Assembly: GCF_900112175.1 (NCBI RefSeq)
Contig: NZ_FOYT01000001.1
Coordinates: 1,116,001-1,180,000, forward strand
DNA: 64,000 bases
Direction of reading: 5' to 3'
Origin: Halogeometricum rufum
GTDB taxonomy: Archaea; Halobacteriota; Halobacteria; Halobacteriales; Haloferacaceae
Below, piece by piece: positions 5,410-47,541 of this stretch (positions within the stretch are counted from its first letter, which is position 1; each line of letters begins with the position of its first letter). The notes beneath the pieces were generated by a model. The model saw only the letters and a list, made by a program, of their open reading frames with translations, had not been told where the DNA came from and ran no database searches. A program made the translations under genes and the position numbers.

Positions 5410-7749
5410 TTATCGAGCGACACGTCGCCCCAGTACGAATACGAACAGAGCGATCAACAAACCACCTGCGAGAGATTCGAGCCCGACAAGCGCCTTCGAT
5501 AGTAATCCGGTTGGATAGAGATCACCATAGCCGATCGTGGTGAACGTGATGATACTGAAATAGATGCTCTGGGCGAGAATAGGCAGGCTCTCGAATATGC
5601 CGCTTACCGATGGGTTGAGTGTCAACTGAAGCCGATAGCTTTCGTTTGTGCTATCAGCTGCGAACCCACCTAAAAAGGGGTACAGCAAACCGAAGAACAT
5701 GATTGTAGTTACCCACCCGAGGAACAGACGTTTGAAGCTCTCACCATAGTTGGTGAGCCACTTACTGAAGGATGCAATTGCCCACTGTGAGTAGTTCTGT
5801 TCCCGGCAGTGGTTCTTTCGTTGGACTTCTTCCTTTCGGATATGGAATTGACGTGTACGTCCAGAGAGTGCGTTTTCCTCGTGGAGAGACTGGAGGCGTC
5901 GATAGGTCCACGCTGCCGCTTCGTAGGGATGAACATCGTAGTCGAACGTCTCCTTATCAGATGCAAGAATTTCAGCGGGTGAGTGTTCGTATACGCATTT
6001 CCCGAAGAAATCATCCCCCTGCTTGACAAACTGTGTGGCACTATTGATACGGGTATCTCGAAAAACAGTTTGGTAAAGGCGGGCATTGCGAAAGTTGGCC
6101 CCACGACACTTTGCTGCGCTTAGCACGGCGTCTTCAAGCGTGGCACCTCGGAGGATTGCATCTCGGAGGATGGCGGTTGAAAGATCCGCGTCGGTAAGAT
6201 TCGCGTTCGGCATGTCGGCCTCTCTGAGATTCGTACCCGATAGATTGGCTTCCCCGAGGTCGGTCCCCGACAGGTCCGCTTCCTTGAGGTCAGCCCCCGA
6301 CAGGTCGGCTCCCGCGAGGTGAAAGTTCGACAGGTCAGCATTTCCGAGGTCCGCTCCCGAAAGGTTAGTTTCCTCGAGATTTGCATCCGATAGAGCAGTC
6401 TCCCTGAGGTACGCACCTGGAAGGTCAGCTCTTCGGAGGTCCGCCCCAGACAAGCTGGTCATCCGGAAGTTCGCACCTGACAGGTTGGCTTCCTCAAGGT
6501 TGGCCCGTGACAGGTCAGCTCCCTCGAGGTCAGCCCCCGACAGGTCGGCTCCCGCGAGGTGAAAGTTCGACAGGTCAGTATTTCCGAGGTCCGCTCCCGA
6601 AAGGTTAGTTCCCACAACAGATACATTCGACAGGTCAGTCTCTCTGAGGTATACCCCCGACAGGTTGGCTTCCTCGAGGCCCGCTCCTGACAGGTCGACC
6701 TTTCGGAGATTCGTCTCTGACAGGTTGGCTTCCTCAAGGTTGGCCCGTGACAGGTCAGCTCCCTCGAGGTCAGCCCCCGACAGGTCGGCTCCCGCGAGGT
6801 GAAAGTTCGACAGGTCAGCATTTCCGAGGTCCGCTCCCGAAAGGTTAGTTTCCTCGAGATTTGCATCCGATAGAGCAGTCTCCCTGAGGTACGCACCTGG
6901 AAGGTCAGCTCTTCGGAGGTCCGCCCCAGACAAGCTGGCCATCCGGAAGTTCGCACCTGACAGGTTGGCTTCCACGAGGTCGGCTCTTGACAGGTCGGCC
7001 CTCCGGAGGTTCGCACCTGACAGGTTGGCTTCCGCGAGGTCGGCCTCTGACAGGTTGGCTTCCGCGAGGTCGGCCTCTGACAGGTCGGCCCTCCGGAGGT
7101 CCGCCATCAGCAGGTTGGCTTCCGCGAGGTCAGTTCCGGACAGGTCGGTCCTCCGAAGGTCAGCTTCTAGTAGGTCGGCTCCCCCGAGGTCGGCCTCTGA
7201 CAGGTCGGCCCTCCGGAGGTTCGCCTCTGACATGTAGGCGAATTGGGGCTCTGACTCCGACAGATTGGCATCCTTGAGGTCCGCTCCTGACAGGTCAGCA
7301 TTCCGGAGGTATGCTCCCGACAGATCGGCGTCCTTCAGATCTGACTCTGATAGATGGGCGTCCTCCAGGTCCGAACCCGACAGGTCGACATCTTTGAGAC
7401 CCGCTCTTGAGAGGTCAACGAACTTGAGGTATGAACCAGACAGGTTGGATCCACCAAGCAAACAGTTGGAGAGGGAAATCGGTATATCAAATTTTGTTCC
7501 GACTAAGTACGCTTTGGGGAGTCGTTCTGGACCGTCACTCCGTGCGGATATGAGGCCATCAACAGGTTTGTTCTTAGTTTCAGCGTGCCAGATACAGTTC
7601 TCGCTATCTTCCCACGGTGGTCGCAGACAGACTACATCTCCAGAACCGGTCTCGGTCCATTGCGCACCGTCCACGAACTCCTTACTGTCCCAACCCCTAG
7701 GCTTGGGTAGACGATACCCGCACTGATCAGCTGATTTGTCCGTGGCCAT
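5410..7749 (-). CDS. Pentapeptide-repeat protein fused to a K+ channel pore module
   Basis: The 779-residue protein starts MATDKSADQCGYRLPKPRGW (ATG 7749, behind a TATGTATAAC box). Residues about 75-560 are A(D/N)LSxA-type pentapeptide repeats forming a predicted right-handed quadrilateral helix. A short basic linker follows (RRLQSLHEENALSGRTRQFH region), then a two-helix ion-channel module with selectivity filter TTIGYGDLYP near the C-terminus. The filter is intact for K+. Long near-identical DNA blocks inside the repeat show recent internal duplication. Base composition is more AT-rich than the flanks. The likely role is a membrane channel with a cytoplasmic repeat sensor; the ligand is unknown. 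Confidence 0.8.
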   Translation of the reverse strand: MATDKSADQCGYRLPKPRGWDSKEFVDGAQWTETGSGDVVCLRPPWEDSENCIWHAETKNKPVDGLISARSDGPERLPKAYLVGTKFDIPISLSNCLLGGSNLSGSYLKFVDLSRAGLKDVDLSGSDLEDAHLSESDLKDADLSGAYLRNADLSGADLKDANLSESEPQFAYMSEANLRRADLSEADLGGADLLEADLRRTDLSGTDLAEANLLMADLRRADLSEADLAEANLSEADLAEANLSGANLRRADLSRADLVEANLSGANFRMASLSGADLRRADLPGAYLRETALSDANLEETNLSGADLGNADLSNFHLAGADLSGADLEGADLSRANLEEANLSETNLRKVDLSGAGLEEANLSGVYLRETDLSNVSVVGTNLSGADLGNTDLSNFHLAGADLSGADLEGADLSRANLEEANLSGANFRMTSLSGADLRRADLPGAYLRETALSDANLEETNLSGADLGNADLSNFHLAGADLSGADLKEADLSGTDLGEANLSGTNLREADMPNANLTDADLSTAILRDAILRGATLEDAVLSAAKCRGANFRNARLYQTVFRDTRINSATQFVKQGDDFFGKCVYEHSPAEILASDKETFDYDVHPYEAAAWTYRRLQSLHEENALSGRTRQFHIRKEEVQRKNHCREQNYSQWAIASFSKWLTNYGESFKRLFLGWVTTIMFFGLLYPFLGGFAADSTNESYRLQLTLNPSVSGIFESLPILAQSIYFSIITFTTIGYGDLYPTGLLSKALVGLESLAGGLLIALFVFVLGRRVAR
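6301..6980. repeat. 240-bp unit duplications inside the pentapeptide gene
   Basis: The blocks at 6301-6500 and 6781-6980 are almost identical, and the intervening 6541-6780 block shares the same first about 55 and last about 60 bases. Each unit therefore spans 240 bp (80 residues, 16 pentapeptides). The pattern indicates duplication by recombination within one gene. Confidence 0.85.
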
Positions 7750-7949
7750 ACCAGTTATACATAGATGCGTGACGATAGGCGTTCTTCTGGTTACCCGAGA
7801 ACGACCTAACTGACCAACCACCACAACTTCAATTAGGTGCCGAAAGGGCCGAAGCAGAAGGGATACTCCCAACTCGCGGGCCGCAGATTGAATCGGTACT
7901 TCTCCGGAATAAGCTTTCAGGCAGAATACCAGCTAGGAAAACAGAGGTT

Positions 7950-26684: not shown

Positions 26685-27381
26685 TCAGTCGTTGGTGTCG
26701 AGCGGCATCCCGAGCGGCGAGACGCCGAACTCACGGGCCTGCCGGTAGGCCATCCGCTCTAAGAAGAGACGGTCCGAGCGCGGCAGGTCGCCGTATTCGG
26801 AGGGTGTCTTTCCGAGTGCGACGAGAAGTTGCCAGTAAATCGGGGCGAGCGTGTCGAACTCAGCGAAACTCGGCGGCCGCCTCGACGCCGTCCGCCATCT
26901 CTTGGCGGACCTTCATGAGGAGCGACTGTCGTACCTCGGGCGGCTCGGCCGCCCAGAACTCGTAGTCCAGCGTATCGTCGACGGAGTGCTCGGCGAGGAG
27001 TTCGGTGATGCGGCGCGTCGCCGACTTGTACGTCTCGTACTGGTCGTCGTCCAGGCCGTCCTCGTCGAGGCCGGCGAAGTCCTCCGCGAGGTCCTCCAGC
27101 CACTCGATGGTGTCGCCCTCAAGGCGCGTGAACCCGACATCCTCGCCGTAGATGGTGACGTCGACGCGCTGGTCCTGCCGCGCCTGTTCGAGTCGCTGCT
27201 TGAGTTCGGAGGCTTCCTCCTGTTCGGCCCGGGCGTCGTCGAACTTGGCTTGCGCCTGTTCGCGCGCCTTCTGCGCCGTCTCGGGGTTGTCGTAGTCCGG
27301 GGCGTCCTCGACGGCCAGCGAGTCGTCGACCTGTGCGCCGCCGTCCGTGCGGATGTCGTCCGCGGTGTTGGTGTCGGTCAT
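26685..27381 (-). CDS. Tail assembly chaperone, G and G-T frameshift fusion
   Basis: Frame 0 (27381-26860) encodes the 173-residue G-type protein ending ADGVEAAAEFR-stop, with an acidic coiled coil and EFWAAEPPEVRQSLLMKVRQ. The +1 frame continues past that stop for 59 residues, AEFDTLAPIYWQLLVALGKT to MPLDTND (stop 26687-26685), and has no usable start codon before its interior. The likely slip is at TTT.C (26868-26865), giving a 231-residue fusion. The position between tail tube and tape measure is exactly that of lambda G/GT. Confidence 0.8.
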
Positions 27382-45758: not shown

Positions 45759-45831
45759 AGCCGGTGGAGGGATTTGAACCCTCGGCCTATTCCTTACGAA
45801 GGAATCGCTCTGCCAGCTGAGCTACACCGGC
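45759..45831 (-). tRNA. tRNA-Thr (anticodon CGT)
   Basis: The minus strand folds into a full cloverleaf: acceptor GCCGGTG/CACCGGC (7 bp), D-arm GCTC/GAGC, anticodon stem ATTCC/GGAAT with loop TTCGTAA (anticodon CGT, Thr ACG codon), and T-arm GAGGG-TTCAAAT-CCCTC. The discriminator base is T. No intron is seen. The tRNA marks the host side of the provirus junction. Confidence 0.95.
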
Positions 45832-45889
45832 GCGGTGGGCTTTCGAACGCATCCTATCGTATTCCGATGACAAAGAAAAGGCTTCCGAA

Positions 45890-46918
45890 TCAGCGCGCAG
45901 TGAGCGTCACGTCAACACACACGTTGTGCTCGTGCGGCGCGTACGACCGGACGATCCGCTCGGTGTCCACCCGGACGTCGTACTGCGGTTCTGCCGCCTC
46001 CCGGATCGCTTCGATACCGGGGCCGAACGGGTCGTCCTCGTGCTGGATGTCGTAGTAGTGGAGGACGCACTCGTCGCCTGCGAGTCGGACCGCGGTGTCG
46101 AGGAAGTCGTCGGCGCTGTGGGGGAGGTTCATCACCAGACGCTCGGCCCAGCCCTCGTAGTCGTCGACCACCTCGCGCACGTCGCCCTGAATCGCGGTCA
46201 CGCGCTCTGCGACGCCGTTGCGCCGCGCGTTCTCCCGGAGGTAGTCGACGGCGACGGGGTTGAGGTCGCATCCGACCGCCTCCGCGCCGCGCTTGGCCAT
46301 CGGGACGACGAACGGCCCGACGCCGGCGAACATGTCGAAGACGCGTTCGCCCTCGTGGACCTGTTCGACCACGCGGTGGCGTTCGGTCGCCAGTCGGGGA
46401 GAGAAGTAGACCTCGGCGATGTCGAGGAGGAACTCGCAACCGTACTCGCGGTGGACCGTCTCCGTCGCGGTCGAGTGCGCCGAACGGTCGCTCGGCGAGT
46501 CGTCCTCCGCGGCGGCGTCCACGAGGACGTCCCAGTCGCGGACCCGGAGTTCACCCTTCACCTTCGAGGCGCGGTTGACGACGGTCCGCGCGCGGAGGTC
46601 CGAGGCGGCGATGGCGTCGGCGATACGCCTGGCGCGTTCGGGGTCGTCCTCGTCCAGAATCACCACGTCGCCGAGGCGTTCGTACGTCGGTTCGAAGCCG
46701 AGGACGTCTTCGGGCATCGTCTGCGTCTCGCGGGGCGGCGCGTCGAACTCGACCACGTCGTACGCGTCTTCGGCCGCAGTCGCGTCCGTCACGGGGATGT
46801 AGAGCGACCCCTCGCGGGCGGTGATCTGGAAGGACTGGTCCACCAGGTCCCGGTCCGCGAGGGCGCGCCGCGTCGCCTCCCCCTCGTCGGTCGAGACGCG
46901 GACGCACGGAACGTTCAT
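45890..46918 (-). CDS. trm5: tRNA (guanine37-N1)-methyltransferase Trm5
   Basis: The 342 residues fit archaeal Trm5. The N-terminal D1/D2 domains (1-150) are followed by the class I methyltransferase with AdoMet motif VFDMFAGVGPFVVPMAK (193-209), GCDLNPVAV, and the catalytic NLPHSADDFLD (264-274). The enzyme makes m1G37, preventing +1 frameshifting. ATG 46918 was chosen because upstream in-frame sequence is Arg-rich out-of-register. It lies 58 bp from the tRNA gene. Confidence 0.9.
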   Translation of the reverse strand: MNVPCVRVSTDEGEATRRALADRDLVDQSFQITAREGSLYIPVTDATAAEDAYDVVEFDAPPRETQTMPEDVLGFEPTYERLGDVVILDEDDPERARRIADAIAASDLRARTVVNRASKVKGELRVRDWDVLVDAAAEDDSPSDRSAHSTATETVHREYGCEFLLDIAEVYFSPRLATERHRVVEQVHEGERVFDMFAGVGPFVVPMAKRGAEAVGCDLNPVAVDYLRENARRNGVAERVTAIQGDVREVVDDYEGWAERLVMNLPHSADDFLDTAVRLAGDECVLHYYDIQHEDDPFGPGIEAIREAAEPQYDVRVDTERIVRSYAPHEHNVCVDVTLTAR

Positions 46919-47037
46919 GCGCGATGCTGACGGTGCGGCGGAGTAAGCGTGACGCTTCGGCGGCCGGCGACTGGCGATTGGCGACGGACGACCGGGCCGC
47001 GGCGACGAGGGGGCGTCGGAGGGCGCACGGGGGGCCG

Positions 47038-47541
47038 TCAGCAGACGACGACCGGTTCGGACGCGCGGCGGCCCTCCTCTACCCGACCCAACCACTCGCT
47101 CACGGCGACGGTGTGGCCGCCGCGGACGTGCGGGACCACGTTCGTCAGGACGCCGTCCTCGTAGACGGCGACGACGATGGGCGGCAGATACTGCGCCTCG
47201 TGTTCCGGCCCCATCCGTCCCGTCCCGACCGTCGCCTCGCGGTCGAACTCCGGAAGCCTCGCGCTCGTCACCCGCGCCCACTCGCGGAAGTCGGCCACGC
47301 GCCGTCGTGCGAGTCGCTTCCGCGGTTCGACCGGTTCGCCGAGGAACACCGTGCGGTCCCACTCGCGGACCACGACCCTGTCGGCGTAGCCGTCGCGTTC
47401 GAGACGGCGAATCCGGCCGACGCAGGGATGCTCGCGGTGCGCTTCGTCCGGGGTGTGTCTCGTCCACACCTCGATAGTGCGGCCGTTGGCGGGCACCGCC
47501 GTCGCCGGCGTTCGAGTCGTCACCTCCTTCGAATGTTTCAT
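47038..47541 (-). CDS. Conserved haloarchaeal hypothetical protein (167 aa)
   Basis: ATG 47541 (MKHSKEVTTRTPATAVPANG) follows a GGAGGTG Shine-Dalgarno-like site nine bases upstream, which decides it over the ATG at 47583. The core is RHTPDEAHREHPCVGRIRRL, EWARVTSARLPEFDREATVG and LPPIVVAVYEDGVLTNVVPH. No catalytic motif is visible. It is separated from Trm5 by about 120 bp. Confidence 0.65.
   Translation of the reverse strand: MKHSKEVTTRTPATAVPANGRTIEVWTRHTPDEAHREHPCVGRIRRLERDGYADRVVVREWDRTVFLGEPVEPRKRLARRRVADFREWARVTSARLPEFDREATVGTGRMGPEHEAQYLPPIVVAVYEDGVLTNVVPHVRGGHTVAVSEWLGRVEEGRRASEPVVVC

Follow-up and report, generated by a model that had tools for sequence, protein, structure and literature searches.

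Two small open reading frames, here called G and T, overlap in different frames in the tail gene region of an element carried by Halogeometricum rufum, and the second of them has no start codon close to its beginning. This raises the question of how T could be translated, and of the direction in which a ribosome would have to move to reach it. The only demonstrated case of programmed frameshifting in archaea was, as of 2021, a -1 site in Saccharolobus (review, PMC8211752), and our search of the literature returned no experimental proof of +1 shifting in these organisms. The DNA analyzed here is a stretch of 64,000 nucleotides (referred to as the window), for which a preliminary description had proposed a programmed +1 frameshift in the tail chaperone of an archaeal virus.

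Organization of the chaperone locus

The features of the locus are collected in Table 1. The final codons of G are GCC GCC GAG TTT CGC TGA, T reads AEFDTLAPIYWQLLVALGKT...DTND, and the overlap between both frames comprises 18 codons. The gene order is tail tube, G, T and tape measure, which bears out the location described before, flanked by the tail tube and tape measure genes as in lambda G/GT. HK97 gp10-like, portal and Mu F-like genes are found farther upstream of the tail tube candidate, weaker relatives of which exist in 12 further genomes besides the provirus G088, and no sheath gene was recognized in the element. The window is part of a 1.87-Mb chromosomal contig, and among its relatives at the order level are haloarchaeal genomes that carry related tail modules; the element is therefore a provirus in a haloarchaeal chromosome. 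The reading of these genes as a chaperone is supported.

Table 1. Coordinates in the window of the features of the chaperone locus and the evidence for each
Feature	Position	Strand	Evidence and remarks
Tail tube candidate, 162 aa	27894..27406	minus	Immediately upstream of the chaperone; G088 has a 37% identical counterpart there
G, short tail assembly chaperone ORF, 173 aa	27381..26860	minus	ATG start, TGA stop; 35% identity to G of the G088 provirus; between tail tube and tape measure
GT fusion (predicted), 231 aa	27381..26685	minus	Translation with TTTC taken as one Phe step
TGA opening the +1 frame	26915-26913	minus	Sequence; bounds the overlap where the shift can occur
GAGG, SD-like word, tentative stimulator	26883-26880	minus	12-15 nt upstream of the slip codon
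TTT_CGC slip site (predicted)	26868-26863	minus	TTT_C kept in 14/14 +1-offset modules
T, 59-residue extension, +1 frame	26864..26685	minus	First codon GCT at 26864, TGA ending at 26685; translation, coding-like composition, homologous T domains in G088, G112 and G140
Tape measure protein, 1319 aa	26641..22682	minus	GTG start; PHROG tape measure family, E 4e-37

The analogy with lambda supports considering G and T as a tail assembly chaperone gene of the G/GT type in two parts: both ORFs are small, they overlap and are flanked by the tail tube and tape measure genes, and the second one is start-less, has a conserved offset and site, and is predicted to be expressed as a fusion. By the same analogy, G would serve to coat the tape measure protein, tail tube subunits would be recruited by the T domain of GT, the rarer product, and the G:GT ratio would be set by the slip frequency. 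Neither G nor T matched a named family in Pfam or PHROG, an absence that is weak evidence since such proteins diverge fast. The structure model obtained for G (pLDDT 74.5) consists of a beta-hairpin and helices and had no match in the PDB; it resembles viral proteins only weakly, the best of these matches (E 4e-4) being unnamed, and several annotated tail assembly chaperones appear only at E 0.1-0.5.

The observation of a second frame of 59 residues without a nearby start was confirmed, and is correct in its details: the earliest ATG, GTG or TTG in the T frame is the ATG at 26753, which corresponds to residue 38 and is located downstream of the conserved T core. Codon-position GC (GC3 minus GC2) is +0.39 in the T frame, a coding-like value, versus -0.09 in the -1 frame, which is not coding-like and closes after 32 codons, and a lambda-type -1 offset with an X_XXY_YYZ heptamer was not found at this overlap. 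The junction predicted for GT is ...AAAEF-AEFDTLAPIYWQLLVALGK (EF-AEFD), with a single F followed by A after the +1 step at TTT.

Two other observations were made in the window. A tRNA-Thr gene and then trm5, coding for tRNA m1G37 methyltransferase (45759-47467), are found near the boundary of the provirus with the chromosome, as it appears from GC content. The m1G37 modification guards against +1 slips, and the closeness of trm5 to this boundary is probably a coincidence; exact repeats of at least 14 bases around the tRNA-Thr gene were not found elsewhere in the window. In addition, positions 5410-7872 encode an 820-aa protein with pentapeptide repeats and a C-terminal ion channel domain.

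Conservation of the overlap in related proviruses

The G088 provirus (loci L007/L011) is found in another haloarchaeal family, and its T is 33% identical to that of the window, next to the values given in Table 1 for the tail tube and G. Its overlap reads CAG TTT CGC TCG GAG TGA. The T of this provirus is also in the +1 frame, and is start-less ahead of the conserved T core. The stop of G is located two codons farther on than in the window, with TTT_CGC and the offset unchanged, and therefore TTT_C, and not the stop, is the conserved element. Of the TTT-C-GC-TGA context that had been initially described, the TTT_C part stands, whereas the adjacent TGA was dropped as part of the signal, given that in relatives the stop can be found up to 8 codons beyond TTT.

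The corresponding overlaps in the other proviruses are AAG TTT CGC CAC CAG TAG in G204, GAG TTT CTC GGC CAG TAA in G112, and GAG TTT CTC GGG TAG in G140 (Halopiger goleimassiliensis). BLAST comparisons within a set of 18 sequences indicated homology among four of the T domains, those from the window, G088, G112 and G140 (E ~1e-7 or better), which share the pattern LL...G.TP.E.G.L...R..LE, and a weak homology of the G204 T to this group. The T frames of G112 and G140 also lack a start codon ahead of the conserved core, and the differences between them by codon position are 13/4/29, concentrated at third positions; at the sequence level, T is shown to be under coding selection in the relatives, as for a translated protein. 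When genome contigs were scanned with a T profile, the sole match was in Halopiger goleimassiliensis, with the site as in G140. Degenerate-pattern scans of IMG/VR for relatives of G, T and the tail tube found none, and a phage collection searched for relatives of G or the tail tube gave no credible match.

Survey of G/T overlaps in haloarchaeal tail modules

The survey of G/T overlaps, which is not exhaustive, covered 40 tail modules or isolated viruses of haloarchaea, sorted according to which frame continues with a coding-like composition. A +1 offset was found in 14 modules, which are not fully independent (11 are non-redundant), and a -1 offset in the remaining 26. The +1 set comprises five proviruses (the window, G088, G204, G112 and G140) and nine isolated viruses, namely HSTV-2, HRTV-7, HF2, HJTV-1 and HRTV-27 of the Hafunaviridae, HRTV-4, HFTV1 and HRTV-29 of the Haloferuviridae, and HHTV-1 of the Madisaviridae. 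A frame break could also be produced by a single indel, that is, by a sequencing error or the decay of the gene in one genome, but with both frames being coding-like and the identical offset and site recurring in the remaining four proviruses and in all nine viruses, the chance of this is negligible.

The last 10 codons of G include an in-frame TTT_C in all 14 modules with +1 offset versus 1 of 26 with -1 offset (Fisher test, 6e-10, or 1.4e-8 with the 11 non-redundant members), and this TTT_C is the sole feature common to the +1 set. The site is TTT_CGC in 11 cases, TTT_CTC in two and TTT_CCA in one. The bodies of the 40 chaperone G genes contain TTT_C 3 times in 6,295 codons, and by chance it would be expected in the last 10 codons of 0.07 of 14 genes. 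In the late genes of the window provirus TTT accounts for 10 of 6,853 codons, and in-frame TTT_C occurs there only twice.

These data bear on the possibility that TTT_C is kept for its amino acids, encoding Phe in both frames, and that the slip takes place elsewhere in the overlap. The 18 codons of the window leave room for other sites, but no other element is common to the 14 modules, the residues adjoining TTT_C differ between families, and elsewhere in the surveyed G genes, leaving aside the final 10 codons, Phe is mostly encoded by TTC (30 TTT out of 213), all of which makes this explanation very unlikely. Comparison of related haloviral overlaps, the check that had been suggested for this locus, thus found both the frame offset and TTT_C conserved.

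It could also be considered that T is translated independently of G, from a non-canonical start or by reinitiation past the G stop, with no frameshift involved. T does begin beside the stop of G, and the T frame of HHTV-1 opens with an ATG and is annotated as a separate gene. However, the window, G088, G112 and G140 have no start codon before the conserved core, no near-cognate start for T is conserved, and independent translation would leave the conservation of TTT_C within G unexplained, so we regard this alternative as very unlikely. Of the two findings that had been named as contrary to a frameshift, G and T in a single frame was seen in none of the homologues inspected, and a separate start for T is plausible only in HHTV-1. 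Even this virus probably shares the TTT_C slip site, though its T could start at its own ATG.

With respect to the -1 modules, those with a resolvable site have G_GGA_AAN or A_AAA_AAG. The T domains of two of them, L019 and L017, resemble those of +1 modules (BLAST E 1e-5 to 1e-2), and judging from this similarity the direction of the shift appears to have switched among apparently homologous chaperones. HGTV-1 (L083, 16397-16843) is the only -1 chaperone with TTT_C, in the context GAT TTT CAC; it is possible that tRNA-Phe slips back there from T_TTT, in what would be a single-tRNA -1 site. Six other provirus loci (L012, L013, L014, L016, L021 and L060) have a -1 offset and a T without start, and no X_XXY_YYZ heptamer was recognized at their G/T overlap; GAGATGTTG is common to several of them, close to where the T homology begins. 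Loci L054, L055 and L056 (the G246, G300 and G179 proviruses, respectively) also show a -1 offset with very few start codons in T, and no heptamer was found in them by eye.

Direction and mechanism of the shift

Taking these results together, we estimate a probability of nearly nine in ten that the window provirus makes the long form of its chaperone by a +1 ribosomal slip at UUU-C. In most ribosomes, translation of G would end at its TGA and yield the short chaperone. A minority of them would move forward one base while UUU, paired with tRNA-Phe, occupies the P site and the A site holds CGC. tRNA-Phe would then shift from TTT (26868-26866) to TTC (26867-26865), leaving GCT (26864-26862) as the next codon, and reading from GCU onward would give the GT fusion. 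The occurrence and efficiency of the slip, its mechanism in the P site and the chaperone function are inferred; the conserved offset and site in relatives support the earlier proposal that a Phe tRNA slips by +1 from TTT to TTC.

A shift of -2 would lead to an identical reading frame, and the GenBank notes for HJTV-1 and HRTV-27 (Hafunaviridae) indeed mention a 'putative programmed translational -2 frameshift'. The codon under tRNA-Phe after the slip would be UUC in all 14 modules for a +1 movement, whereas for -2 it would be AGU, CCU or GGU, with no acceptable pairing in any of the 14. A -2 shift is therefore very unlikely, and the GenBank notes for Hafunaviridae are unlikely to be right.

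Regarding elements that might stimulate the +1 slip, no signal was found for a downstream RNA structure. Of the 11 non-redundant +1 modules, 8 have an SD-like word 10-18 nt upstream of TTT, versus a 7% background; the interval was chosen post hoc, and several of these words derive from a conserved Glu-Ala/Val. None of the ten -1 sites tested has such a word 10-18 nt upstream, and -1 genes have them at other spacings. We consider the upstream SD-like word as a stimulator to be a lead only. The tRNA-Phe of Haloferax volcanii has only m1G rather than wyosine (PMC7761594), and a tRNA-Phe lacking wyosine may be more slippery.

Comparison with known recoding sites

A +1 shift at TTT-CGC has already been proposed for HF1-group haloviruses, based on six genomes (PMC7230728). 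As in the window, the tail tube and tape measure genes of HF1, HF2, Serpecor1 and Hardycor2 flank two chaperone ORFs, with a +1 offset and TTT-CGC just before the stop of G; unlike it, these are contractile-tail Hafunaviridae with a longer T, and no sequence similarity to G or T of the window was detected. A +1 shift has also been inferred for the tail assembly chaperone of HSTV-2 (PMC5009743, PMC8211752), another +1 G-T fusion with the site TCC TTT CGC AGA, although its stop is found 8 codons after TTT and the proteins are unrelated. For HVTV-1 and the HCTV viruses -1 shifting was inferred (PMC5009743, PMC8211752). Lambda G/GT and its haloviral -1 counterparts (HVTV-1, HCTV-1/2/5 and Hardycor1) share with the window the position of the genes, the two-product logic and a small T, and differ in shifting by -1 at X_XXY_YYZ heptamers.

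Outside archaea, influenza PA-X and plant amalgaviruses use UUU_CGN +1 sites, where tRNA-Phe was proposed to move from UUU to UUC (PMC5052127). The slip codon and the class of A-site codon are the same as in the window, but these are eukaryotic RNA viruses and other genes are involved, and archaeal A-site codons also include CTC and CCA. The window has an in-frame site of this kind within the overlap, a downstream +1 ORF, and conservation of both in relatives.

Implications for annotation and recoding in haloarchaea

We found no literature extending TTT-CGC to virus families beyond those already published. As far as could be found, the presence of TTT_C in an unrelated provirus tail family, in Haloferuviridae and probably in HHTV-1 would be new, as judged from sequence comparisons, and so would the variants with CTC and CCA and the apparent change of direction. 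TTT_C also supplies a rule for the annotation of haloviral chaperones, applicable to HRTV-29, HFTV1, HRTV-4 and the -2 labels in Hafunaviridae. In the case of HRTV-29 (L095, MZ334526, 1420-2099), the deposited chaperone joins the -1 frame, with a composition of -0.08 and no recognizable homology, and the +1 frame (ending at 2071) has a composition of +0.35, a T like that of HFTV1 and GGG TTT CGC at the overlap; the chaperone is likely misannotated as -1. The records of HFTV1 and HRTV-4 give T as a separate gene.

A more general reading, to which we give somewhat better than even odds, would be that UUU_C, mostly as UUU_CGC, constitutes a general haloarchaeal +1 recoding signal, used by every +1-type tail chaperone of haloarchaeal viruses in several unrelated families and matching the motif of eukaryotic RNA viruses, that it possibly exploits the wyosine-less tRNA-Phe and is perhaps helped by an SD-like word 10-18 nt upstream, and that related genes have switched between -1 and +1. 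The signal is compact and conserved amid diverged surroundings, and a reporter test in Haloferax would therefore be direct. Its connection with the UUU_CGN sites of eukaryotic viruses suggests a feature common to both systems, either in the translation machinery or in tRNA-Phe.
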